This document shows positions 2,977-42,402 of a DNA stretch of 43,327 nucleotides, one piece after another. Position 1 is the first letter of the stretch; each line of letters opens with the position of its first letter. The translations under genes and the position numbers were made by a program. The stretch spans positions 1 through 43,327 of the IMG/VR virus record IMGVR_UViG_3300013126_000071. One strand, given 5' to 3'. The notes below the pieces were generated by a model. The model saw only the letters and a program-made list of their open reading frames with translations, was not told where the DNA came from and ran no database searches. The stretch is from a virus.

Positions 2977-3001
2977 GTTTATTTATTTAGAATAAATAAA
3001 C
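2977..3001. other. perfect 11-bp inverted repeat between portal and prohead protease genes
   Basis: GTTTATTTATT, a TAG loop, then AATAAATAAAC form a perfect 11-bp stem with a 3-nt loop. It overlaps the last base of the portal stop codon on the minus strand. It lies at the 3' end of the portal gene, in a 94-bp gap before the protease. The stem is all A/T apart from one G/C pair and has no U-tract, so it is a weak terminator candidate. An RNA processing or stability element is equally possible. Confidence 0.4.
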
Positions 3002-5040
3002 TACATGCGAGAACCCATTGACCAAGCAATTCGTGCTTCGCTTTGGGCTATTTCATACTTTTTCTTGGCGATTAAGTTTGTAAATATTCCCACCAGTGAT
3101 GTCCTCAACGCAGTTGAACGCTCTTCGCCATCGGAAATATTCATTGTTGCAAGAATTGAGTTTGTTATTTCTTGAGCCGTTTCATCATTAATTGATTTAA
3201 TTCTGAACACCTGTGAGTTGACCTGAGCAACAATGTCTTCTTTTTTGATTGGTGTCTTGATTAATGATTTCTCCGCAAAAACATTTTGCGCGTCAACAAT
3301 TATTGCGTTAAGGACAGGCTTAATATCCTCTTCAATCTGCCTGGACCAAACATCAAGTTGGAAAATGCTTTCTGTATCCAAAAATCCGGTTGACAACTGT
3401 TTTCTAGACTTCGCCCCTGCTGCTTTTTCTAAAACAACGCGCTGTTGTCTTTCAAAAATTCTCTCCAGACTTCTGTCCAGAATTTCTGTCCATCTATCGA
3501 GGGTGTTGTCTTCCTCTGATTTTGTCTGCATTCCACCGTATGGTGCCGAAGCCTGCTGTGGTGCAGTTTCCATAGAAGCCTGTTCCGGTGGGGCGACCTC
3601 TGGGCCCATTCCGGCCTGCGCCGCCATTGATTGGTTTTCTGCTGCCAATGCCATGGCACCCTGCATGGTTGTTGGGTCTGGTGGTGCAGCACCTTCTGGC
3701 GGCATCCCAGGCATACCACCGGGAGCACCTGGAGCACCTGGAGCACCCGGCATTCCTGGCGGCGGAGGTGCGCCCATAACTCCAGCCTGTGCTGGCTGTT
3801 CCATCTTCTTTTTTGTATTGGCGATGGGGGTCAGGTTTGGGTTTAAGAGAAGAGAGTCGGCAAGGTCGCTTTCTACCTCTTTTCTTCCAGTTCTGTCTCT
3901 GTATTCATTGAGGCTAATTAGCCCTTGCGTGAACTCTTCTTTTGTGTATCTGTTTCTTTCCTGTTCGTACAGAATAAGAACAGGCACATTTGAGACATCA
4001 AAGTCTATGTAGTACTGCTCGTCTAGTTCATCCAACGCTCTACCTATTGGCTCTAAGTGCGGAAGCATTGTTTCGTTCCAGAAAACCCTAATTTCTTCTC
4101 CAGCATTGGAGAACGTACGACCAGCGGCATTGCCTATCACTGATTCTGGAACACCAAAAGAAGCAAGAATTTCCTCCTTTGTTATTTGCCGCATCTGGAT
4201 GTACGCAGCATCTCTGGGCGAGGCAGAGGTATCAACAAAGTCAGCACCATCGTCAGAAGAAATAACAGTTGTTGCACCAGCGCGGGATATGTTTCCCCTG
4301 AATCTGCTCTTTAGTTCTTCTTTGTCGTCGTCATCAATTTCACCGCGAAGAACAAGAAGACCTCCCGGTCTTCCGTCGTTTATCAAATAATTTCTGTTGT
4401 ACACCTTCGCAAGGTTCTCAATCTCAACAGCGATTCCCGCTGATTCAAGTGGCGTCATTGAAAGATAGGGGTCAAGTGGGTGTGGTTTTCGAATCCAAAC
4501 CACATCCTCTGGCTTCATGGTGATGATTGCGCCATTGGGCATTCTCACCTCATAACCAGCGACAAACTTCTTTGGGTCGGGTATCGGAGCAGTACTTTGC
4601 GGGGGTAGAAGGTTTAGTCCAATGATTGCTCCATCTCGCCCATATATCTTCTCTATGAAGACACCGCGAGTACTCATCAGCAATTGAGAAGACATTCTGT
4701 ATCTAAAAATAAAAGAGTTTTCTCCTATGTTTGATTTTGTATTGAGGAGTTTGAGTATCTCTGAGTTTTTTGCTTTAGAGCCCTTGATTATCTCGCCGTG
4801 CGGAGAATTGTCTTTTCTGAGAACGATTGGCAAGCGTGCCTGGTTTCCGGCAATTGCATCAACGCACCTAGCCACCCATGTGACTTTCTGCATTCCTTCT
4901 CTGTAAACACGCTCAATATCCCATGAGTCGGTGTATGGCTTTCCTATAAAACCAGGGTTATGGGATACGGGCGCACCGGGCCCGACAGCCTTTGACGACC
5001 CATTACTTAATGATTTGTTGTTGTAATTATTCCACGCCAT
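3001..5040 (-). CDS. phage portal protein (HK97-like) with collagen-like linker and minor-head-like C-terminus
   Basis: A 679-residue protein at the portal vertex, where DNA enters the head and the tail docks. Residues 1-400 match the HK97-type portal fold: WVARCVDAIAGNQARLP near the N-terminus, then GVFIEKIYGRDGAIIGLNLLPP, and the late signature EEILASFGVPESVIGN followed by TFSNAGEEIRVFWNETMLPHLEPI. Residues ~417-450 are a Pro/Gly tract with repeated PGAPGAPG-type triplets. The last ~150 residues are helical and end in INDETAQEITNSI...KKKYEIAQSEARIAWSMG, which resembles the closing motif of Mu gpF/SPP1 gp7 minor head proteins, so a portal-minor head fusion is inferred. Usual portals are 400-520 aa. 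It lies directly upstream of the prohead protease on the same strand, the canonical head order. Confidence 0.9.
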   Translation of the reverse strand: MAWNNYNNKSLSNGSSKAVGPGAPVSHNPGFIGKPYTDSWDIERVYREGMQKVTWVARCVDAIAGNQARLPIVLRKDNSPHGEIIKGSKAKNSEILKLLNTKSNIGENSFIFRYRMSSQLLMSTRGVFIEKIYGRDGAIIGLNLLPPQSTAPIPDPKKFVAGYEVRMPNGAIITMKPEDVVWIRKPHPLDPYLSMTPLESAGIAVEIENLAKVYNRNYLINDGRPGGLLVLRGEIDDDDKEELKSRFRGNISRAGATTVISSDDGADFVDTSASPRDAAYIQMRQITKEEILASFGVPESVIGNAAGRTFSNAGEEIRVFWNETMLPHLEPIGRALDELDEQYYIDFDVSNVPVLILYEQERNRYTKEEFTQGLISLNEYRDRTGRKEVESDLADSLLLNPNLTPIANTKKKMEQPAQAGVMGAPPPPGMPGAPGAPGAPGGMPGMPPEGAAPPDPTTMQGAMALAAENQSMAAQAGMGPEVAPPEQASMETAPQQASAPYGGMQTKSEEDNTLDRWTEILDRSLERIFERQQRVVLEKAAGAKSRKQLSTGFLDTESIFQLDVWSRQIEEDIKPVLNAIIVDAQNVFAEKSLIKTPIKKEDIVAQVNSQVFRIKSINDETAQEITNSILATMNISDGEERSTALRTSLVGIFTNLIAKKKYEIAQSEARIAWSMGSRM

Positions 5041-11227: not shown

Positions 11228-11448
11228 TGGCAATTGGCAGCGGCTCAGAAATCGGCACAAACTTCAAGCAAGTAAAAGACTTTACTGAAGAAGATTGGGA
11301 TAACTGGTTTCAATACATGCGCGACAACTGGGGTCAACAACTTCAGGCTGGATATGCTCATCTAATTCACAAAAAAGAAGGAAACCCTTTCTACGACATA
11401 GAAGAACGTAGGCGTATAAACTTGTTAAAGGAAAAACAAAATGACTAA
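11227..11448 (+). CDS. small hypothetical protein within ParB/PAPS-reductase block
   Basis: 73 residues starting at a TAATG junction with the ParB-like gene and overlapping the PP-loop gene by 8 bp. Acidic and aromatic N-half (FTEEDWDNWFQYMRDNWG), basic C-half (EERRRINLLKEKQ). No family recognised. The position between two functionally linked genes suggests a helper, but nothing in the sequence shows a function. Confidence 0.65.
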   Translation: MAIGSGSEIGTNFKQVKDFTEEDWDNWFQYMRDNWGQQLQAGYAHLIHKKEGNPFYDIEERRRINLLKEKQND

Positions 11449-12583
11449 GCAGAGAATGTTCCTGAACATCAGTTGCCTCGAAGCGGCTCGGCAGAGAATA
11501 CGCCACGTTTACGACACTTTTGATACCGTCTGCGTTCAGTTCTCTGGTGGTAAAGATTCAACAGCAATTCTTTATCTAGCAAAAGAAGTTCACGAAGAGC
11601 GTGGGCTTGGGCCGGTAAAAGTCATCTTTAGAGATGAAGAGATGGTTAGCCCTGCTATTTATGAGTACGTGAATAAAGTCAGACAATATGACTGGGTTGA
11701 CATGGAGTGGTACTGCCTTCCGTACGCAAACGAAGTTTGGGTTCTAGGCATACGCCAGAATGTTCTGCAGTGGGACCCGATTAGGGCTGCGGAAGGAAAA
11801 CTAGTCAGAGAAATGCCGTCGTGGGCAATCAATGCATCTCACTACGGTTTGCCAATGGACGAGACTCCACCAGAGGGAATTGACTACTACACACTCCAAG
11901 GAAAGAAGGGAAGCGTTGCCTTTCTTACTGGCGTTAGGGCAAATGAGTCAATGGTTCGTTACCGCTCTCTTGTCCAAAAGGTGCATGAGAACTACATCGT
12001 CAGCCCTTATAAAATGAAAAAGTCGATTCCATTAAAGTTTGCCAAAGTCATTTATGACTGGCAGACAAATGATGTATTCAAGTTTATTTCGGAAGAACAC
12101 AATGCCGAATACTGCGAGTATTATGACCTTGCCGCAATGACGGGTTCCAATACCAGGGTTGGTATACCGCTTCATGCGGTAGCAATTCGCCGAATCGGTG
12201 ACGTTGTTTCAACAGAGCCAGAATTTTACGACAAACTGTGGGACACATGGCCAGAGATAGACGCTCAGCGAAGATGGTGGCCGGATTTTGATATGGAAAA
12301 ATACATCGAGAGTTACGCTCTTGATGGTTTTGATGGGGCAAAGCGGTGCATAGAAGAGAACACTTCTGACGACCTGGATAAGCGTAGGGCAATGGCATAC
12401 GTTGCTGACTTTAGAAAGAAACACCTGAAAGACCCATACTCATATCCGATGAACTGGCTTATCAGGAATCTATTAACTGCAGAACTTACTGGCGTTGCCG
12501 CAGCACCAGTTGGTCCAAAAACAAAAGCGGATACGCTTAGGCAAAAAGCAGCACAACAGGAGTTGGATAATGAACAATATTGA
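11441..12583 (+). CDS. PAPS-reductase-like PP-loop protein (IbrA/DUF3440-like)
   Basis: 380 residues. The PP-loop QFSGGKDSTAIL (SGGKDS at 35-40) and the downstream FLTGVRANESMVRY mark an ATP-pyrophosphatase of the PAPS reductase/adenine hydrolase superfamily. The Trp-rich middle and the length of about 380-400 fit DUF3440/IbrA better than assimilatory CysH (about 240 aa). No C-terminal CysH ECGLH motif is seen, so sulfate reduction is unlikely. IbrA acts with ParB-like IbrB in gene activation in E. coli, by an unknown mechanism. Here ParB-like genes lie on both sides and the downstream one overlaps. A nucleotide-activating or nucleic-acid-modifying role is inference. Confidence 0.85.
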   Translation: MTKQRMFLNISCLEAARQRIRHVYDTFDTVCVQFSGGKDSTAILYLAKEVHEERGLGPVKVIFRDEEMVSPAIYEYVNKVRQYDWVDMEWYCLPYANEVWVLGIRQNVLQWDPIRAAEGKLVREMPSWAINASHYGLPMDETPPEGIDYYTLQGKKGSVAFLTGVRANESMVRYRSLVQKVHENYIVSPYKMKKSIPLKFAKVIYDWQTNDVFKFISEEHNAEYCEYYDLAAMTGSNTRVGIPLHAVAIRRIGDVVSTEPEFYDKLWDTWPEIDAQRRWWPDFDMEKYIESYALDGFDGAKRCIEENTSDDLDKRRAMAYVADFRKKHLKDPYSYPMNWLIRNLLTAELTGVAAAPVGPKTKADTLRQKAAQQELDNEQY

Positions 12584-32753: not shown

Positions 32754-33359
32754 GTGGCACAGAAATTTACAGTTCCGGTAACGATTAAACAGTTATCCTC
32801 ATCTGGCTCTGATGCCATAACCATCTTCGTAGATGCCGATACTTATGCGCGCCTAAAAGTTGAAGCGGGTGGACGCCTAACCTGGGGTTCCGGCTCTGGC
32901 TCCGGGGACGTAAATCTCTACCGCGATGGTGCAGATGTACTAAAAACCGACGATACGTTCAAAGCATCTGCTCTTTTTGTTGATGGCATTGAGATTGACA
33001 CAACAGGCGCAACCAGTAACCAAATTCTTAAATATGATGGAACAAAATTTGCTCCAGCAAGCGGAGGTGGCGGCGGTGGGGCGTCCGCAATAGATGACCT
33101 CACGGATGTAACAATCACATCGTCAGCGTCTGGGGATTTCCTTAAATACAACGGAAGCGCATGGGTAAATGACCCAATTGACCTAGGAACAGACACAACC
33201 GGTAGTTATGTCGCATCCCTAGTTGCCGGTACTGGCATAACGCTAACTAATAACTCTGGCGAAGGCGCAACACCAACCGTTGCTGTAACATCAAATACCT
33301 ACGATGCATACAATTCGTCAAGAAATGTTGAAATCAAGTTCCTCATGGAGGTCATGTAA
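32754..33359 (+). CDS. tail fibre/adhesin protein
   Basis: 201 residues from GTG 32754 (GAGG close upstream). The N-terminal β region includes ITIFVDADTYARLKVEAGGRLTWGSG. A poly-Gly/Ser linker (GGGGGGASAIDDL) precedes DDLTDVTITSSASGDFLKYNG, LVAGTGITLTNNSG and other fibre motifs common in phage tails. The last residues reach the next gene through TAATG. Confidence 0.75.
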   Translation: MAQKFTVPVTIKQLSSSGSDAITIFVDADTYARLKVEAGGRLTWGSGSGSGDVNLYRDGADVLKTDDTFKASALFVDGIEIDTTGATSNQILKYDGTKFAPASGGGGGGASAIDDLTDVTITSSASGDFLKYNGSAWVNDPIDLGTDTTGSYVASLVAGTGITLTNNSGEGATPTVAVTSNTYDAYNSSRNVEIKFLMEVM

Positions 33360-33718
33360 TGGCATTAACACAAAAAAGGCTGTCTGGACCGACGCAGTTA
33401 ACCGCATCGTCTGTTGTTCAGTACACGGTTCCACAGAACACAACGACAATTGTGAAGCAAATTATTTTGACGAACACTACCGCATCTGCCAAAACGGTCA
33501 CCGTGCGACTCAAGGTTCTCAACGTCGCAGAAGACAACACGGATGACATCCTCAGTGCATTCTCGCTTTCTGCTAACGAAACCGTCACGTTCAACTGTTC
33601 CATGGTCTTGAACAACAACGGCTCCACTGCCGATGCCACAAACTCAGACCAAATAACGGCACTAGCAAGCGCGGCCACCGCAGTAAACATGACCATGTTT
33701 GGTATTGAGGAGTCGTAA
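33359..33718 (+). CDS. hypothetical β-sandwich virion protein
   Basis: 119 residues at a TAATG junction. The sequence alternates Thr/Val-rich strands (VQYTVPQNTTTIVKQIILTN, KTVTVRLKVL, ETVTFNCSMVLNNNGS), as in small Ig-like or decoration proteins. Family not recognised. The run of adhesin genes makes a fibre-associated role likely. Confidence 0.7.
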   Translation: MALTQKRLSGPTQLTASSVVQYTVPQNTTTIVKQIILTNTTASAKTVTVRLKVLNVAEDNTDDILSAFSLSANETVTFNCSMVLNNNGSTADATNSDQITALASAATAVNMTMFGIEES

Positions 33719-34432: not shown

Positions 34433-35743
34433 ATGGCCAGTGTCGACAGGTATGGGTCTGCCGCGAAAACCCAAAGAACCGGTAATGATTGGGTTTACGG
34501 AACAGGTGCTGATGGCGATGTGACAATTAGTGGAACGGTTACGCTTACATCAGACAAGTATTACAACACTTTGACAGTGCCCCTAGGAAATGTTCTTTTA
34601 ACCAACGGCTATCGTATTTTTGTTAAAGGGGCAGCCACAATCAACGGCGTAATTGGGATTGGCACCGTAACTGGAAACGTCAACAATTCAACTAACGGAA
34701 CTATTTCATCCCCCGGTTCCGCTGTTTCTACGGCAAGTGTGGCTGGCAATCTTTCTTCCGTGCTTACATACCGTCTTGGTGGCCAAGGGGGTGGGGCAAC
34801 TAATCCGAATGTTACTGTTCTCCCGGCGTACTTGGTTAACAGAATTGAGGCGATGGCCGGGGTTGCATTTGACGCGACTGTTGCCTCTTCCACGGCGCAA
34901 ATTTTGAGTGGTGGCTCAGCAGGAACCACGGGTTCTGCTGGCACTACACAAACTTCGTACACAAATGACAGCCCAGCACCATCAGGGTTTACAAATACTT
35001 GGCCGAACAAGGCTGGCTCTGCTGGTTCTCCGGGTTCTGCCGGAGCCGCCGGTGGCTATCCACCGAATGCTCACACTGTAGGAGCGGCAGGAGGCCGGGG
35101 TCACAGTGGCGCCACGGGGGGAACTGGAGTCAGTGGTTCTGCGCCAAACCCACCGATTGCCGCAACCGGAGGCGCAGGAGGCGCAGGAGGCGCAGGGGGC
35201 GGGGTTGTTGCATTGATTGCAAAAACAATTACTGGAACAGGGACAGTCATGTCCTTGGGAGTGGTCGGTGTAGCAGGCTCCGCTGGTGCTACTTCTCCAG
35301 CAGGACCAAACGGTCATACCGGTTCGACCGGAGCCAATGGCTCCACTGCGCCGGGCTTCACTGAACAACACCACCACGCACATTCAGCCCACACCTGTTG
35401 TACCGGGCACGACCCGGTCGTCGGAAAAGGTCATGACCCGTTCCACCTTAGTCACCACTACGTAATTCACGCTCCCCATGCATGTTGTACGGTTACTCCC
35501 GGACACCACTACGCCGGAGGTGCAGGAGGTACCGGAGGCGCCGGCGGTGCAGGTGGGACTGGTTCTCCGGCAGTCACTGGAGGCACTGGAAAAAGAGGGG
35601 GCGCTGGCGGTGGCGGTGCAATTATCATTATCACTGAAACCACTCCATCTAACTTGAACTATGACGTTCGCGCAGGAACTACCGCAGATTCTGATACATT
35701 TTCTGCATCAAACGGCTCAACGTATATCATTCTTAACGCATAG
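34433..35743 (+). CDS. glycine-rich adhesin with His/Cys-rich insert
   Basis: 436 residues from ATG 34433, just after the previous stop. N-terminal YGTGADGDVTISGTVTLTSDKYYNTLTV and TNGYRIFVKGAATINGVIGI match the preceding gene. Residues ~195-310 and 362-400 are Gly-rich repeats (GGAGGAGGAGGG, GGTGGAGGAGGTG). Between them, residues ~313-361 contain 14 His and 4 Cys (HHHAHSAHTCC, HLSHHYVIHAPHACC), an apparent metal-binding segment. HxH motifs coordinate iron in some phage spikes and fibres. The protein is probably a tip adhesin; the insert's role is unknown. Confidence 0.75.
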   Translation: MASVDRYGSAAKTQRTGNDWVYGTGADGDVTISGTVTLTSDKYYNTLTVPLGNVLLTNGYRIFVKGAATINGVIGIGTVTGNVNNSTNGTISSPGSAVSTASVAGNLSSVLTYRLGGQGGGATNPNVTVLPAYLVNRIEAMAGVAFDATVASSTAQILSGGSAGTTGSAGTTQTSYTNDSPAPSGFTNTWPNKAGSAGSPGSAGAAGGYPPNAHTVGAAGGRGHSGATGGTGVSGSAPNPPIAATGGAGGAGGAGGGVVALIAKTITGTGTVMSLGVVGVAGSAGATSPAGPNGHTGSTGANGSTAPGFTEQHHHAHSAHTCCTGHDPVVGKGHDPFHLSHHYVIHAPHACCTVTPGHHYAGGAGGTGGAGGAGGTGSPAVTGGTGKRGGAGGGGAIIIITETTPSNLNYDVRAGTTADSDTFSASNGSTYIILNA

Positions 35744-35751
35744 GAGACATT

Positions 35752-35994
35752 ATGGGAATTTTTGACAGCGTAACGACAGAAGAAAAAAGAAGGCTCATGG
35801 AGGTTCAGTTGTCTCAACTGAAGTTGTCCCTGTGGTCTCATCTTCTAGCCATACAAATTGACCCCGACACTTTTGATGAAAACTCGTGGGAGGGTCCAGA
35901 AGAGTGGATGGGACCTAATCACCCCGCAAGATTCGTGTTGGACCACATTCAGCAAATACAACTACTTGAGCAAAAAATCGCCTCATTAGATTGA
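35752..35994 (+). CDS. small hypothetical protein
   Basis: 80 residues with TAGGAGAC before ATG 35752. Helical: RRLMEVQLSQLKLSLWSHLLAI, an acidic Trp-rich middle (SWEGPEEWMGPNHPAR), then IQQIQLLEQKIASL. No family recognised. It separates the glycine-rich adhesins from the oxygenase/halogenase cassette; a fibre chaperone is possible by size and place but unsupported by motif. Confidence 0.65.
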   Translation: MGIFDSVTTEEKRRLMEVQLSQLKLSLWSHLLAIQIDPDTFDENSWEGPEEWMGPNHPARFVLDHIQQIQLLEQKIASLD

Positions 35995-36001
35995 TTTAGT
36001 T

Positions 36002-36394
36002 ATGAACAGATTTGTGGGCGTTCCATCGTCGTTGATGAATAGTGGAACAATCCCTGTTGATGCAATGAAAATAGCAAACATCTTTTCTTTGGAAATCCGC
36101 TCCATGGATGACTGCTCTGAAATCAAAATATTTTCTGAACCATCAATAAAGGCGCTTGATTACGACAAAGATTACACAAACAATAGAACGTGGTCTTTGG
36201 ACCTAACCAATGAATTTATTGAGATGAGAGAAGCCTGCTACGTCGTAATAGACAACATTGTCTACCCGCCAGCAATAAAAGAAAAACACCGTTTGAAATT
36301 TAGAATCAGGATGTGTGGGATTGGAAAAAAGACAGTCCACGTATTCGTCAACAATACAGAAGTTGAAACAATAGAAGTGATGGAAAAACAATGA
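36002..36394 (+). CDS. hypothetical protein upstream of oxygenase
   Basis: 130 residues, no Shine-Dalgarno site before ATG 36002. The sequence has mixed α/β features: FSLEIRSMDDCSEIKIFSEP, CYVVIDNIVYPPAIKEKHRLKFRIRM, KTVHVFVNNTEVETIEVM, which suggest an Ig-like β domain. It overlaps the oxygenase gene by ATGA and so belongs to the same unit. No family recognised. Confidence 0.65.
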   Translation: MNRFVGVPSSLMNSGTIPVDAMKIANIFSLEIRSMDDCSEIKIFSEPSIKALDYDKDYTNNRTWSLDLTNEFIEMREACYVVIDNIVYPPAIKEKHRLKFRIRMCGIGKKTVHVFVNNTEVETIEVMEKQ

Positions 36395-36954
36395 GTGTTG
36401 AATTAGCGACGTGCATAAATCTGTACAAGTCGTCAATCGATTCCCGTCCATTCATGTCGGAAGTCAATGATGAACTTGATAATCAATGGTCGGAAATACA
36501 GTGGACCAACTCGTCGGTTGGTGAAGGGTCCGTGGGCAACTACAGAACATCTGCGGAAGCCGACATATCTCATCTATCAAAGTTGAACTCTTCGTTAGGA
36601 ATCAAGTTCAAATCAATTGAAGACACAATTGTCAATGATTTAATTCGTGACTACACGAAGCAATATATAGTTTCAACGTCGGGCTATGAGGGATGGAGAA
36701 TTCTCAAGTATTCCGGCGGTGGTGAATATCACGCTCATTATGACCATTCTCCACGCAATCAACGCATTGTCAGCGTGGTGGCTTTTCTTGAAACACCAGA
36801 TGAGGGCGGAAGCCTAGAGTTTCCGTTTTTTGGAGTAACTGTTGAAGCAGTTGCGGGAGATGTGGTGATATTCCCGTCTAATTTTCCCTATGTCCATATA
36901 GCCCATCCAGTAACAGCCGGAACAAAGTGTAGTTTGGTGACATGGTTTCAGTAA
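36391..36954 (+). CDS. 2-oxoglutarate/Fe(II)-dependent oxygenase (prolyl-4-hydroxylase-like)
   Basis: 187 residues. ILKYSGGGEYHAHYDHSPRN contains the iron-binding H116-x-D118. FPYVHIAHPVTAGTKCSLVTWF supplies the distal His169 and Lys179 in place of the usual Arg for 2-oxoglutarate. The RIVSVVAFLETPDEGGSLEFP centre and GDVVIFPS are typical of P4H-type 2OG oxygenases. These hydroxylate protein side chains or small molecules. All ligands are present, so an active enzyme is expected. It overlaps the following unknown gene by 13 bp, next to a halogenase, which hints at joint oxidative tailoring. Confidence 0.88.
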   Translation: MSVELATCINLYKSSIDSRPFMSEVNDELDNQWSEIQWTNSSVGEGSVGNYRTSAEADISHLSKLNSSLGIKFKSIEDTIVNDLIRDYTKQYIVSTSGYEGWRILKYSGGGEYHAHYDHSPRNQRIVSVVAFLETPDEGGSLEFPFFGVTVEAVAGDVVIFPSNFPYVHIAHPVTAGTKCSLVTWFQ

Positions 36955-38078
36955 AACCCCTAAATGAATTGACAATTGCTCCTGACGGATGTTTTGCGTT
37001 CGTGGATTCAACGCAGACTGTGGCAATCAACTACGACAGTCCGTCTGGGAAAGTTGAGTACACAGATTTTGAAGCGTTTTCTCATCCAAATGGGACAATA
37101 ATCAGGTTTGAAAATACGGACCAACACAACAACGTAACTCCATGGTCAATGAGGGTTATTCTTGATAATTCCGAACAAACTCTTCAATGGACATCATATG
37201 AGGACCATGATGATATGTGGGAAAACATTAATAGAACGCCCCATCGTTTCTACGGATTTCTAGAATCGGTTGATGTCGGAGAATTTGACCAAAGCAAGAC
37301 TGTTGTGAAACTTGACGGCAGGTGTGACTACGGTGCATACGGTCCAATGCCTTATCACTCAGTGACCGACGGAATACACAAAACCGTTTTAGACCCAGAA
37401 TTTGCCGTAAAAGTAACTCCTGGAAATTCTTCTCCAGCAATAAGCATCAACGGTCTTGGCCACATTACCTCTTTTTATGCGCACGGGATAAATATGTCTT
37501 GGAGAAATTGGCCAGTCGTAACTTTTGTTGGGAAAACTCTTTCTGGTTTGATAAAACAACTTTCGGAGTGGAAATACATCTATGAACTTGGAATGGACAA
37601 TAACAAGTATTCAAAAGATGCCAGTGAATTTCTTGACAGACTTGGCATAACCGGTGAAATGATAAAGCAACTTGAGCAAACTGAAGTAATGATGCCGACG
37701 GAACGATTTATTCGCGGATATGGTAATCCACGGCATGGATTTACAGAAACTGGAGTTTTGCCAGACTCCATTAAAAATCAACTGATGAGAAACATAAGAT
37801 ATAAAACTCTTTCCGTGTTGGAGAAAAAACATCCTGCGAAACCGGCAATTTCTTCGCTTTTGAAAGAACAAGAACGAAGTGTCCAACTAGAAAAAATTTT
37901 AAAGTGGTTTTACACCTTTAAACCATGGGTGCCCCAAGAAGAAATGTCAACAGAATTGCTTTTGAGCGACCTATATAACAGGGATACTGAAATTCATATC
38001 ATCCCCCCAATTCCAGCAACTGCCAAATTACACTCAGATGGAGTTCATGCGGCACGGTTTTTTGATGCAACAAAATAA
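36942..38078 (+). CDS. unrecognised 378-residue protein between oxygenase and halogenase
   Basis: No family is recognised. The N-terminal half is β-rich (TQTVAINYDSPSGKVEYTDFEAF, WSMRVILDNSEQTLQWTSY) with many aromatic and acidic residues. From ~residue 190, helices appear (KTLSGLIKQLSEWKYIYELGM, EFLDRLGITGEMIKQLEQTE). A late region reads KHPAKPAISSLLKEQERSVQ. Stop-start overlap with both neighbours marks it as part of the cassette. It could be a partner protein, the modified substrate or an unrelated structural protein; nothing distinguishes these. Confidence 0.75.
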   Translation: MVSVKPLNELTIAPDGCFAFVDSTQTVAINYDSPSGKVEYTDFEAFSHPNGTIIRFENTDQHNNVTPWSMRVILDNSEQTLQWTSYEDHDDMWENINRTPHRFYGFLESVDVGEFDQSKTVVKLDGRCDYGAYGPMPYHSVTDGIHKTVLDPEFAVKVTPGNSSPAISINGLGHITSFYAHGINMSWRNWPVVTFVGKTLSGLIKQLSEWKYIYELGMDNNKYSKDASEFLDRLGITGEMIKQLEQTEVMMPTERFIRGYGNPRHGFTETGVLPDSIKNQLMRNIRYKTLSVLEKKHPAKPAISSLLKEQERSVQLEKILKWFYTFKPWVPQEEMSTELLLSDLYNRDTEIHIIPPIPATAKLHSDGVHAARFFDATK

Positions 38079-39546
38079 TCAACTCAGTTTTTGTGTGGTC
38101 GGCTCTGGAACCGCCGGACTTATCACGTCTATTGTTCTCCGTCAGGCGTTCCCTAACTCTACGATTACTAACGTGTACTCGAGTAAGGCCGGAATTGTTG
38201 GAGTCGGAGAAGGCAGTACGGAGCATTGGCGAATGTTCATGGATTCATGCAACATCGGGGTCGAATCGCTCATTAAGAACACCGGAGCCACTCATAAATA
38301 CGGTATTCGCTTTGAAAACTGGACGACAAAAGTACCTGACTACTTCCACAGCGTCGCAGGAATCCCAGAGGTACAGGCTTGGGGATTGTTGGGGGAATAT
38401 CTTTCTTATCTTGAAAACAACAAGATGATAACCACACAAACTGGAAGTGTTGGTCTTGTGAAAGACAAAATCGTAAGAGAAGGGTTGCACCACAACACCA
38501 ATCAATTTCACTTTGATACATTCATGCTCAATGACTTTCTAGTTGGACTTTGTTTCAAACGTTCTATTAAATTCATTGACGACACGGTTGTTAGTGTTTC
38601 TTTGGACGAAAACGGTTACATTGACTCTGCATTACTTGAATCCGGCATAACAGTCGATGCGGATATGTGGATTGACGCAACTGGGTTCAATGGAGTGTTG
38701 ATGACGATGCTGGGAAACAACTCTTGGAGGTCTTTTTCTAACTATCTAATAGTTGATTCGGCAATTGCCTTCCCCACCGAATCTGACCCAAGTGGAAAAA
38801 TCAAACCGTACACGAGGGCAAAGGCCGCGTCATCTGGTTGGATGTGGGAAATCCCAACTCAACAGCGGCGTGGAAACGGGTATGTCTACTCATCTCATCA
38901 CATTTCAGACGATAAGGCAATTGAAGAAGCAAGAAAAATCAGCGGGTATCACATCGACCCAGCAAGGTCATTCAGGTTTGACCCCGGCTATCTAAAGAAC
39001 CAATGGCACAAAAACTGTGTTGCTGTTGGGTTGTCTTCTTCGTTTGTGGAGCCCCTCGAGGCGACAAGCATCGGAAGCACCATTATTCAGGCTTTCAAAA
39101 TTGCCACATACTGCTCATCCTACGTTCGTGGGGCAGAAAAAATGGTCATTGATTACAACCGGAAAATGGAAGACATGATGCTCAACATCAGGGACATGAT
39201 TCGCCTTCACTATATGTCCGATAGAAAAGACTCGACCTTTTGGACAGATGTTTACAACATGCCCGTTCCTGATTCACTTCAATCACTGATTGATTTGTGG
39301 TCAGAGCGGCCTCCGGCGTATCACGATGTTCCAGATACTGGGCATTACATGTTTACTACTAGACATATGACTCACGTTGCACAAGGACAGGGGCTTGTTC
39401 CTGCGTATCCAAGTTCATTGGCCATGGACCGGTTTGCTATCCGTAGTACGGTCGAAAAGAAAGCCGACGAGTTAAGAATGTCTCGGCACGCACGCGAATT
39501 AGTTGACCATAGGGAAGCATTGCTGGAGACAACAGATGAAGATTAA
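38065..39546 (+). CDS. flavin-dependent (tryptophan-type) halogenase
   Basis: 493 residues from ATG 38065; starts at 38038 and 38047 are possible, but this one puts the FAD motif at the usual distance. FAD binding: SFCVVGSGTAGL (GxGxxG). VGVGEGSTEHW follows. THKYGIRFENW places Lys78 where PrnA has catalytic Lys79. SGWMWEIP contains the WxWxIP motif (259-264), a hallmark distinguishing halogenases from monooxygenases. FVEPLEATSI holds the conserved Glu332; the Ser after it in PrnA is Ala here. Such enzymes make HOCl/HOBr/HOI from FADH2, O2 and halide and pass it via Lys to an aromatic substrate. A cyanophage halogenase (VirX1) is known to iodinate small molecules. No flavin reductase gene is in the window. 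Confidence 0.92.
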   Translation: MQQNNQLSFCVVGSGTAGLITSIVLRQAFPNSTITNVYSSKAGIVGVGEGSTEHWRMFMDSCNIGVESLIKNTGATHKYGIRFENWTTKVPDYFHSVAGIPEVQAWGLLGEYLSYLENNKMITTQTGSVGLVKDKIVREGLHHNTNQFHFDTFMLNDFLVGLCFKRSIKFIDDTVVSVSLDENGYIDSALLESGITVDADMWIDATGFNGVLMTMLGNNSWRSFSNYLIVDSAIAFPTESDPSGKIKPYTRAKAASSGWMWEIPTQQRRGNGYVYSSHHISDDKAIEEARKISGYHIDPARSFRFDPGYLKNQWHKNCVAVGLSSSFVEPLEATSIGSTIIQAFKIATYCSSYVRGAEKMVIDYNRKMEDMMLNIRDMIRLHYMSDRKDSTFWTDVYNMPVPDSLQSLIDLWSERPPAYHDVPDTGHYMFTTRHMTHVAQGQGLVPAYPSSLAMDRFAIRSTVEKKADELRMSRHARELVDHREALLETTDED

Positions 39547-40321
39547 TAAGGTAAACCTCAACAAATTAAAGAAAGTTAAGCCGGGGGAATTGAGAATTAC
39601 TCCGGTTGACAATCGATTTTACGCAACCCCCCCGTACGTTAATTCAAAAAGCAATCTTCCCCAATGGTTCCGAAGAGTTCCCAAAGGAGAAGGTTCAATC
39701 AGGTCGTGCTCTGGAATTTCTGATTTTTTGGAGTTAGGAGCAACTATTCCAGCGTGGTCTAATTTTCACTTTTATCCAAAACAGGATGTAGGCATTTGGG
39801 ATATCAAAGTAGACCAACTTAATCCACCTATTGAGTTTTTAGGAGCCAGTGGATTTGTGTTCGACCAAACTGGCCACTGCCCAATGACAGACATTAGAAA
39901 AATTGAAAAGATGTCGTACCCCAAGGTGCATACTCCTTGGAGAATTCAGACGGCTCCGGGATGGTCGTCGTTGCTGCTGCCAATTTATTACGAAGAAAAC
40001 CCAAATTACTCGATTCTCCCATCAGTTGTGCATACAGACTTTTATCAAATTACAAATGTAGTGTTTAATGTCAAAACAGATTCAGAATTTACAATTCGTC
40101 AGGGAACACCTTTGGTCCAAGTAATTCCATTTCAACGAAGGCATGACATCAAAGAGTTGACATTCATAGACGAAGAGTTTTTCAAGTACGCATCATCCAA
40201 CATGTATCTGACCGGAGGTGTACATCCGTCTGGTGGTGGTCGGGCGTATAGAAAGGCAACAAAAGTCGTGGATGCGCACCTTGAACAAGAAAACAAAAAG
40301 CCGTGGCCGTGGAAAAAGTAG
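39536..40321 (+). CDS. DUF6065-like protein downstream of halogenase
   Basis: 261 residues from ATG 39536 with GGAG 8 nt upstream; overlaps the halogenase by 11 bp. Segments WRIQTAPGWSSLLLPI, VVHTDFYQITNVVFNVKT, IRQGTPLVQVIPFQRR match my recollection of DUF6065, whose members often sit by halogenases. The first third (ITPVDNRFYATPPYVNSKSNLPQWFRRVP) and the basic C-terminus (KKPWPWKK) differ. No catalytic residues are known for the family. The tight coupling suggests joint function with the halogenase. Confidence 0.65.
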   Translation: MKINKVNLNKLKKVKPGELRITPVDNRFYATPPYVNSKSNLPQWFRRVPKGEGSIRSCSGISDFLELGATIPAWSNFHFYPKQDVGIWDIKVDQLNPPIEFLGASGFVFDQTGHCPMTDIRKIEKMSYPKVHTPWRIQTAPGWSSLLLPIYYEENPNYSILPSVVHTDFYQITNVVFNVKTDSEFTIRQGTPLVQVIPFQRRHDIKELTFIDEEFFKYASSNMYLTGGVHPSGGGRAYRKATKVVDAHLEQENKKPWPWKK

Positions 40322-40473
40322 AAACGTTTTACAAAAAAACAGACAATAAATTCCTTCCCAACACGCATGAAAATTGGGAGCAGTTCCATTGGTGGATGCA
40401 CTTCATGGGGGGAAGATGCCTCGTGGTGGCGTGGCACCTATATTGGAAAGAAATGAAAAAAAAAGACTATTAG
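40303..40473 (+). CDS. small Trp-rich ORF after the DUF6065-like gene
   Basis: 56 residues from GTG 40303 (or GTG 40309), overlapping the upstream gene by 19 bp. Contains NTHENWEQFHWWMHFMGGR and VVAWHLYWKEMKKKDY, with five Trp and three His. No strong ribosome binding site. The overlap and lack of other content in 40322-40598 make it a plausible tiny gene of unknown role. Confidence 0.4.
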   Translation: MAVEKVETFYKKTDNKFLPNTHENWEQFHWWMHFMGGRCLVVAWHLYWKEMKKKDY

Positions 40474-40526
40474 AAGAACATTTTCTGGGAGGACAAAGAA
40501 TCGTCTGGCCAGACGAAAGTAAATAG
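40416..40526 (+). CDS. possible 36-residue ORF nested in the previous small ORF
   Basis: ATG 40416 is preceded by GGGGGGAAG and reads MPRGGVAPILERNEKKRLLE, then HFLGGQRIVWPDESK and TAG. It lies in another frame from the 40303 ORF and extends past it. The good ribosome binding site is the main evidence. The rest of 40527-40598 is AT-rich and holds only the AGGTGG site for the next gene. Confidence 0.3.
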   Translation: MPRGGVAPILERNEKKRLLEEHFLGGQRIVWPDESK

Positions 40527-40598: not shown

Positions 40599-41549
40599 AT
40601 GCCCTGGAAAGAGTTCGTAGACGCGGAGATTTTAGACGCATCTGAAGTAAACACGTATTTTATGAACCAGGCTGTTTTGGCTTTTCCAACAGCGGTAGAC
40701 AGAAATACAACAATAACCTCCCCGGTTGTTGGAATGTTTTCTTTTATTACATCTACTGACACTATTGAAATTTACACTTCTGATGAGGAATGGACACCTC
40801 AAATCGCAAGCATTACAGACGGTGCTGTCACTCAAGCAAAAATAGCAACTGGCGCTGTAGTTGAAGCGAAAATAGGAACTGGGGCTGTAACTACTTCAAA
40901 AATAGCAAGTTCCGTTTCGTTGACAACTCCAAATATCGGCGTAGCAACAGCAACTAGCCTTAACGGCTTAACAGTATCTTCCTCGACTGGAACACTCTCA
41001 ATAACCAACGGCAAAACTCTTGCTGCGTCGAACTCAATAACTCTTGCCGGTACCGATTCTTCAACCATATCCGTTAGCGGCAACGTAACCCTTGGTTCAA
41101 GCACCCACGCAATTACCTTGACAACAACGGGTAACACAACTCTCGCCCTTCCCACAAGTGGAACTGTCGCCACTGTTGGCGGAACAGAAACCTTTCTAAA
41201 CAAAACTTTGACTTCTCCAACAATCAATAGTCCAACAATGACAACGCCTGTTCTGGGTGTTGCATCCGGAACTTCTTTGACGGTAAGACCCGCCTCAACA
41301 CAGGACGGAGTTGTTGTTCAGGGACGCGCTGGCGGAACAGGAACGTACGCTGTAACGATTACCCCAACAACTCTTACAGCAAATAAAACCCTTACCCTCC
41401 CAGATAGAAGTGGAATCGTAATTACGAGCAATGATTCTTCAACCGTTACTGAGACAATGATTGACTACACAACTGTTCCTAAACAGACTGTGGGTACGGG
41501 AAGCCCCCCTGCTGGAAAACAACACGATATTTTTATAAAGGTGGCATAA
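40599..41549 (+). CDS. tail fibre protein with Thr/Ser-rich repeats
   Basis: 316 residues with AGGTGG before ATG 40599. The N-terminus (KEFVDAEILDASEVNTYFMNQAV) is a fibre attachment-type start. Residues ~70-105 have GAVTQAKIATGAVVEAKIGTG-type repeats, followed by β-strand repeats such as GTLSITNGKTLAASNSITLA, TLTSPTINSPTMTTPVLG and LTLPDRSGIV that are standard in phage tail fibres. Probably a second long fibre. Confidence 0.8.
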   Translation: MPWKEFVDAEILDASEVNTYFMNQAVLAFPTAVDRNTTITSPVVGMFSFITSTDTIEIYTSDEEWTPQIASITDGAVTQAKIATGAVVEAKIGTGAVTTSKIASSVSLTTPNIGVATATSLNGLTVSSSTGTLSITNGKTLAASNSITLAGTDSSTISVSGNVTLGSSTHAITLTTTGNTTLALPTSGTVATVGGTETFLNKTLTSPTINSPTMTTPVLGVASGTSLTVRPASTQDGVVVQGRAGGTGTYAVTITPTTLTANKTLTLPDRSGIVITSNDSSTVTETMIDYTTVPKQTVGTGSPPAGKQHDIFIKVA

Positions 41550-41550
41550 A

Positions 41551-42402
41551 ATGCCAGATGTAGGCTCTAATGAATTTAGGGCTGCCAATAGTGCAGGCAA
41601 CTTTGTTCCTGGAATCCCAATGGGTAAAGATGGAACAACTGGCGGTCCAAACAATGATGGATGGAAATACGGATATGCCGTGTATGTCCACAATGGAACC
41701 ACGTGGGTGGAGGTGTGGAACGCTCGCCCACAGATGGTGTCCACCTCAATGGCGACGACATCATCTACTGGATTAACATTTACGGGAACAGCAGACCCAA
41801 ACAATTTTTTAACTACAGCAAAGTTTGAATACAAAGAAGTCGGCGCAGGCTCATATGAGAACTCTGGAACAACAACAACTGGTTTAGGCGACAATGTTGA
41901 CGGTGCGGTTTCTTATACAGTAACGGCTACTGTTTCTTCAGGGGACACCTGGAAAAATTGGGAAGCGAGAGCCTCTGGAACAAATGCAGGGGGAACCGGA
42001 ACTGGTTCTACCGTAACGCTTGACTGCCGCAAGCATAATGCTAGTGGTTCTGGGTGGGGAACAAGCGACTCTTCAAATGCGAGTACATGTGATGGTTGTG
42101 GAACGGTAACAACAAGAACTTATACAAAAAGTGGATGTCAGGCATATACCGAACAAATATCTTCATGCGGTTCATGGTCAAACTATTTTGACTTCGTGTG
42201 TATCCAAGTATCTGGTGGAACATATTCGTATGTTGAAGGAACAATCTTTGGATGGTTGTATCACACAAACCCTGGATGCACTAATGTAGTGTCGTGTGAC
42301 CCGGAAAACTTACTTGGACCGGGTGGCGTCGAATACTGTTCTGCAAGTGGGCTATACCGCGTAACGGGTTCAGACCAGTGTATATTCGTCTCGTGCTGCT
42401 GA
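41551..42402 (+). CDS. Cys-rich adhesin/fibre-tip-like protein
   Basis: 283 residues with AGGTGG upstream. Residues 1-60 look like a fibre-attachment segment (NSAGNFVPGIPMGKDGTTGG, YAVYVHNGTTWVEVWNARP). A middle Ig/fibronectin-like β domain follows (GLTFTGTADPNNFLTTAKFEY, SYTVTATVSSGDTW). The last ~125 residues carry all 12 Cys, including STCDGCG and a terminal IFVSCC. Disulfides outside the cell or bound metal would stabilise it. Likely the receptor-binding tip next to the 40599 fibre. Confidence 0.75.
   Translation: MPDVGSNEFRAANSAGNFVPGIPMGKDGTTGGPNNDGWKYGYAVYVHNGTTWVEVWNARPQMVSTSMATTSSTGLTFTGTADPNNFLTTAKFEYKEVGAGSYENSGTTTTGLGDNVDGAVSYTVTATVSSGDTWKNWEARASGTNAGGTGTGSTVTLDCRKHNASGSGWGTSDSSNASTCDGCGTVTTRTYTKSGCQAYTEQISSCGSWSNYFDFVCIQVSGGTYSYVEGTIFGWLYHTNPGCTNVVSCDPENLLGPGGVEYCSASGLYRVTGSDQCIFVSCC

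Follow-up and report, generated by a model that had tools for sequence, protein, structure and literature searches.

Gene content and catalytic residues of the cassette

The window analysed here, that is, the whole 43,327-base stretch of the IMG/VR virus record IMGVR_UViG_3300013126_000071, encodes terminase, portal, tail sheath and tube proteins together with a cassette of overlapping genes that includes a 2-oxoglutarate (2OG)-Fe(II) oxygenase and a flavin-dependent halogenase (Table 1). An earlier note, made from the sequence alone, had described an overlapping set consisting of an oxygenase, a protein without assignment (unk), a halogenase and a DUF6065-like protein (duf), and this is borne out by the gene calls and family matches. 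Its list holds for the main genes; the two tiny open reading frames (ORFs) that it also contained gave no tblastn match outside the window and are dropped, and orfA, which it had not singled out, belongs to the set as well. Along the series orfA, oxygenase, unk, halogenase and duf, neighbouring genes share 4, 13, 14 and 11 nt, which is compatible with translational coupling. The surroundings are as the note had reported, with Gly-rich genes (gly1 and gly2) upstream and fibre-like and Cys-rich genes downstream. For the sheath and tube genes of the window, the PHROG profile search returned phrog_23 (tail sheath, E=9.5e-45) and phrog_5102 (2.9e-16); the presence of sheath and tube genes identifies a contractile-tailed phage.

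The halogenase matches PF04820 over its full length (E=8.8e-98; 328.5 bits against a cut-off of 21) as well as PHROG 2928, and its relatives include PrnA, RebH and VirX1, so that it falls into the PrnA/VirX1 class of flavin halogenases. It carries the GxGxxG FAD motif, the catalytic Lys, the WxWxIP motif and the catalytic Glu. Across 105 distinct halogenases, the Lys and the Glu were invariant (105/105), and the second Trp of WxWxIP was sometimes Phe. The oxygenase matches PF13640 (E=1.7e-13; 51.8 bits against a cut-off of 27), and its H116, D118 and H169 (HxD...H) were retained in 69/69 sequences, with the basic 2OG ligand K179 present in 67 and replaced by Arg in two. The note's statement that both enzymes keep their catalytic residues was thus confirmed for the window and for its relatives. 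When the oxygenase alignment profile was compared with solved structures, the nearest were bacterial prolyl 4-hydroxylases (best 5hv0, 8.8e-9). These proteins (5hv0 and 3itq) are 2OG-Fe(II) enzymes like the window oxygenase, but the similarity is low and their substrate specificity is not transferable.

Two observations concern oxygenase genes elsewhere. In the cyanophages S-H38 and syn9, four genes that carry the annotation 'DNA endonuclease V' (L002:7383-8012, L002:10425-10913, L128:10701-11216 and L128:11824-12405) match the 2OG-Fe(II) oxygenase families PF13640/PF13759, one of them also DUF6445, and the annotation is probably wrong. Furthermore, locus L021 (7308-7985) and its equivalents in L029 and L048 have a gene of 226-262 aa that separates the oxygenase from the halogenase. 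For the copy in L021 the sole match was a weak, methyltransferase-like one (E 0.045), and the gene may encode an alternative accessory enzyme.

The DUF6065-like character of duf holds at the family level, where 7 of 55 relatives match PF19541 weakly (best 5.8e-5), and fails for the window protein itself, which gave no PF19541 match even at E<=1 in the hidden Markov model search. Matches to dUTPase were found for 16 of the 55 relatives (best 7.6e-10). An AlphaFold2 (AF2) model of duf with a mean predicted local distance difference test (pLDDT) score of 91.8 gave 24 Foldseek matches at E<=1e-3, all of them dUTPases (best 1.1e-4). In what we take to be motif III, nearly every cassette member has His or Asn in place of the catalytic Asp ('V[HN]TD[FY]Y'), and duf is therefore probably not a dUTPase enzymatically, despite its fold. 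A weak duf homologue (E 8e-3) was also seen in the haloarchaeal tailed virus Halorubrum virus HRTV-2 (L131), flanked by the thymidylate synthase gene on one side and by the tail-fibre region on the other, with no halogenase annotation nearby.

The AF2 model of unk (pLDDT 86.6) has a beta-rich N-terminal part and a helical C-terminal part; its structure search returned no PDB fold at E<=1e-3, and unk matched no Pfam or PHROG family. The 35 relatives of orfA gave no Pfam family beyond chance. As single-protein queries, unk alone and duf alone found no IMG/VR match, and alignment queries were needed.

Table 1. Positions of the cassette genes and their neighbours in the window.
Feature	Position	Strand	Evidence or remark
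119-aa protein	33359..33718	+	Flank gene common to most of 55 core loci (blastp); co-travels with the Gly-rich pair
gly1, short Gly-rich protein, 237 aa	33718..34431	+	Conserved with the cassette; bait in the reverse scans
gly2, long Gly/His-rich adhesin-like protein, proposed substrate	34433..35743 (longest frame from GTG 34382)	+	Alignment; present at each of the 107 loci of the reverse scans
His-densest 60 codons of gly2	35330..35509	+	14 His; also Cys, Tyr and Pro
80-aa protein between adhesin and cassette	35752..35994	+	tblastn to L008, L009, L014, L015 and L017
orfA, 130 aa, core cassette member	36002..36394	+	hmmsearch with the orfA alignment
2OG-Fe(II) oxygenase, prolyl-4-hydroxylase-like	36391..36954	+	PF13640, 1.7e-13
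unk, 378 aa, optional cassette member	36942..38078	+	AF2 model
Flavin-dependent halogenase	ATG 38065 (longest frame 38038) to 39546	+	PF04820, 8.8e-98
duf, dUTPase-fold, DUF6065-related	ATG 39536 (longest frame 39503) to 40321	+	HMM matches of relatives; AF2 model
Two tiny ORFs	40303-40473, 40374-40526	+	Unsupported as genes
Fibre-like structural protein, downstream context, outside the unit	40599..41549	+	PHROG virion structural and tail fibre matches
Protein with Cys-rich C-terminal part, downstream context	41551..42402	+	Inverted homologue in L008 and L009

Recurrence of the cassette with a Gly/His-rich adhesin pair

A single-protein scan of IMG/VR found the halogenase at 11 loci, with 47-69% identity; at every one of these, oxygenase, halogenase and duf come after both Gly-rich genes. 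Both unk and orfA occur in these loci too, several copies being below the tblastn limit and seen only by profiles. Alignment-based IMG/VR scans added approximately 100 further, partly overlapping loci, and the number of distinct IMG/VR phage contigs with cassette orthologues is well above 50. According to profile searches, orfA, oxygenase, halogenase and duf co-occur in at least 20 arrangements, with the adhesins sometimes inverted or on the other side. The order gly1-gly2-orfA-oxygenase-unk-halogenase-duf has variants in which unk or a second oxygenase follows duf; oxygenase-halogenase-duf-orfA-oxygenase, orfA-oxygenase-duf-halogenase-unk with inverted adhesins downstream, and dispersed forms were also found. 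No degraded copies were seen among the relatives examined. Constant content despite changing order is the usual sign of a functional module, and since the genes recur together in divergent phages, with their order shuffled and never in degraded form, it is strongly supported that they constitute a functional unit. This agrees with the earlier note, which had named scattered genes and halogenase decay as the counter-evidence; neither was seen, and the genes co-occur in phage contigs.

We then reversed the search. Two IMG/VR scans used gly1 only as bait, so that the halogenase had no part in the choice of loci. We counted the 107 loci whose sequence extends 6.5 kb or more downstream of gly1; they form 53, 30 and 16 single-linkage clusters at 95, 80 and 70% identity, respectively. 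The combination of gly2, halogenase and duf was present in 107/107 loci and in 30/30 clusters at 80% identity; 61 sequence-distinct loci contained the family oxygenase in 59 cases, orfA in 49 and unk in 24. In the forward direction, the adhesin pair accompanied 36/39 flanked loci of the best halogenase score band versus 8/24 of the next band. Halogenases at approximately 41% identity and below often lie at other loci, some of them in islands of 3-5 halogenases, and the adhesin link therefore belongs to this branch rather than to all phage halogenases. Moreover, one halogenase scan matched at least 600 stretches among the 2.9 million contigs of the collection, so halogenases of this kind are rare in it and the linkage to the adhesin is not due to chance.

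In the alignment, gly2 shares a conserved N-terminal domain with gly1 and has, besides this, stretches of polyglycine and a His-dense segment that is hypervariable. At least 8 His per 60 aa were found in 97% of 77 distinct gly2 sequences versus 6% of background ORFs of at least 350 aa from the same loci, and the paralogue gly1, with at most 3 His per 60 aa, has no such segment. Relative to the rest of gly2, the segment is enriched in His (28x, partly by construction as the segment is defined by His), Cys (2.3x), Pro (2.2x), Asn (1.4x) and Tyr (1.3x). No tblastn match to gly2 was obtained in cultured phages, a search limited by low-complexity filtering.

The adhesin and the enzymes also diverge together. 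Halogenase distances were correlated with those of gly1 (r=0.64, 0/999 permutations) and more highly with those of duf (0.87). Between the window and locus L031, terminase and sheath are 89 and 69% identical, and gly1 and the cassette genes oxygenase, halogenase and duf only 60, 43, 54 and 43% identical, respectively. Some contigs have the module without detectable window-type terminase or sheath, some of these contigs being fragments. This pattern is consistent with the adhesin and the enzymes being exchanged jointly or diverging rapidly in step, with a contribution from common descent.

The window terminase is 75-89% identical to the terminases of five contigs of 100-137 kb, and this kinship suggests that the window is probably a piece of a larger myovirus. 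A genome scan with the halogenase gave no clear host: three contigs from metagenome-assembled genomes (L134-L136) have a halogenase at 43-52% identity together with cassette genes and are probably phage contigs binned with hosts, and the other matches listed are halogenases at approximately 30-35% identity.

Several side observations concern neighbouring and related genes. The 80-aa protein between adhesin and cassette is conserved in position and weakly so in sequence, and the 119-aa protein upstream of gly1 gave a weak Pfam match to Tad5 below the threshold (E 0.032), probably by chance. Loci L077, L080, L081, L088 and L091 have three to five halogenase genes per phage locus plus further 2OG-like genes. 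In the window, a gene for 3'-phosphoadenosine 5'-phosphosulfate (PAPS) reductase (11441-12583; phrog_2302, 5.8e-75) sits in the half of the genome that holds the structural genes, and the portal gene (3001-5040) lies on the minus strand beside the plus-strand terminase, an unusual arrangement.

Proposed modification of the adhesin and its alternatives

Given the observed gene content, catalytic residues, reciprocal adhesin linkage and joint divergence, we are moderately confident that the cassette is an adhesin-maturation module of contractile-tailed aquatic phages, acting by hydroxylation and halogenation of a virion adhesin. The wider proposal is a tentative one, namely that a widespread phage family halogenates and hydroxylates the His-rich part of its own adhesin post-translationally, which would make the cassette a virus-encoded protein-halogenation system and would give this branch of phage halogenases its natural substrate class. 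The earlier note had left adhesins, host surface compounds and signalling molecules as targets; the reciprocal link to one Gly/His-rich pair favours the adhesin among them, and from this link we infer gly2 as the substrate.

The modified residues, the roles of the accessory proteins and the benefit to the phage are likewise conjectural in the following scheme. The gly2 protein would be produced together with the coupled enzymes. The prolyl-4-hydroxylase-like oxygenase would then hydroxylate residues, of which Pro, Asn or His are the most plausible. In the exposed His-dense segment, aromatic side chains (His, Tyr, Trp) would be halogenated by the flavin halogenase, supplied with FADH2 by a host reductase. 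This segment could offer usable residues for both types of enzyme, and metal binding is possible. The putatively inactivated dUTPase-fold protein, orfA and unk might serve as substrate-binding or assembly factors, and the modified tip might become metal-binding, hardened or retuned for receptor binding.

Several points weigh against this interpretation. The linkage is partly a matter of common descent, the loci falling into 16 single-linkage clusters at 70% identity, and related halogenases occur at other phage loci without this adhesin. Moreover, gly2 is too variable for a conserved target motif to show, and VirX1 is reported to iodinate diverse substrates in vitro. The support for adhesin modification is guilt by association.

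Among the alternatives, the one that survives best is the tailoring of a small molecule, in which a free host metabolite (tryptophan, indole, a signal or an antibiotic) is hydroxylated and halogenated, as proposed for cyanophage prnA. PF04820 was founded on free-Trp halogenases, and published proposals invoke antibiotic protection (PMC2984593, PMC9964418) and 2OG/nitrogen signalling (PMC3037559). We nevertheless regard it as unlikely, because it leaves the exclusive link to one structural pair and the tail-fibre location unexplained and because no conserved additional biosynthetic genes were found around these loci. Quite improbable, in our view, is another target on the virion or the host surface, be it some other fibre or a lipid or polysaccharide of the host, with the cassette travelling with the adhesin as both bear on host range. 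Further fibre and Gly-rich genes do lie near, and the substrates of 2OG enzymes are varied, but the other fibre genes differ among loci while gly1 and gly2 are constant.

Recombination is concentrated at fibre loci, and the window and L031, with similar terminases and divergent cassettes, indicate that the region recombines. Even so, it is very improbable that the cassette travels as selfish or neutral cargo, since its content survives reordering, no degraded copies occur and its presence is obligatory rather than patchy (107/107). That halogenase and oxygenase are virion parts that have lost catalysis, as the position of their genes inside the late structural locus might suggest, is extremely unlikely, as neither the 105 halogenases nor the 69 oxygenases vary in their catalytic residues.

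For the maturation of the adhesin by the cassette, the exclusive reciprocal link to a His-rich adhesin names a candidate substrate that is open to direct mass spectrometry. If this reading is true, receptor binding would be tuned by post-translational chemistry at the tail tip, host range would evolve at a level that the sequence does not reveal, and these phages would be a new source of protein halogenases.

Comparison with known systems

Since approximately 2010, the halogenase and 2OG oxygenase genes of phages have been listed among auxiliary metabolic genes, with roles that are only speculative, and phage halogenases such as VirX1 have, to our knowledge, no established natural substrate. 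The jaw of Nereis offers an analogy among animal materials, with a Gly/His-rich, metal-binding protein that contains halogenated residues. Peptide-acting flavin halogenases are established in the pathways of ribosomally synthesized and post-translationally modified peptides (RiPPs), where SrpI is described as brominating peptidyl Trp under the guidance of another part of the substrate (PMC10858898, PMC10286304). Its substrates are RiPP precursors and not viral adhesins, and the parallel drawn with the window halogenase concerns the proposed action on a polypeptide.

Halogenase genes are common in cyanomyophages, being found in 20/153 cyanophage genomes (PMC10452541). In P-SSM2, S-H38 and HTVC008M, 2OG oxygenase genes adjoin a halogenase 33-39% identical to that of the window, and in HTVC008M the two genes overlap. 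However, orfA, unk and duf were undetected nearby in these three phages, and a profile search found the Gly/His-rich pair of the window family to be absent. The VirX1-type locus of syn9 (gp40-gp53) and P-TIM40 (gp045-gp054) is closer in content, with fibre and fibre-assembly genes followed by two halogenases, a duf homologue and several 2OG oxygenases, and it has no assigned function. In syn9, gp36, which is 35% Gly, lies 3 kb upstream of the halogenase locus, and the window likewise has Gly-rich genes upstream. The differences are that the halogenases are only approximately 24-29% identical to that of the window, that two of them are present, that orfA and unk were not found in this type of locus, and that syn9 has no His-rich adhesin; the cultured hosts are marine cyanobacteria. 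The suggestion that a coupled unit of this composition is new in a contractile-tailed phage is consequently not supported, as syn9 and P-TIM40 have halogenases, the duf homologue and 2OG oxygenases after fibre genes and HTVC008M has the overlapping gene pair. A link of the cassette to a Gly/His-rich adhesin, or a proposal of the adhesin as substrate, was not found in the literature searched. We therefore rate the novelty as moderate in gene content and high in the substrate hypothesis: the gene combination beside fibre genes is already known from cyanomyophages, and what is new here is a unit tied to one Gly/His-rich adhesin pair.

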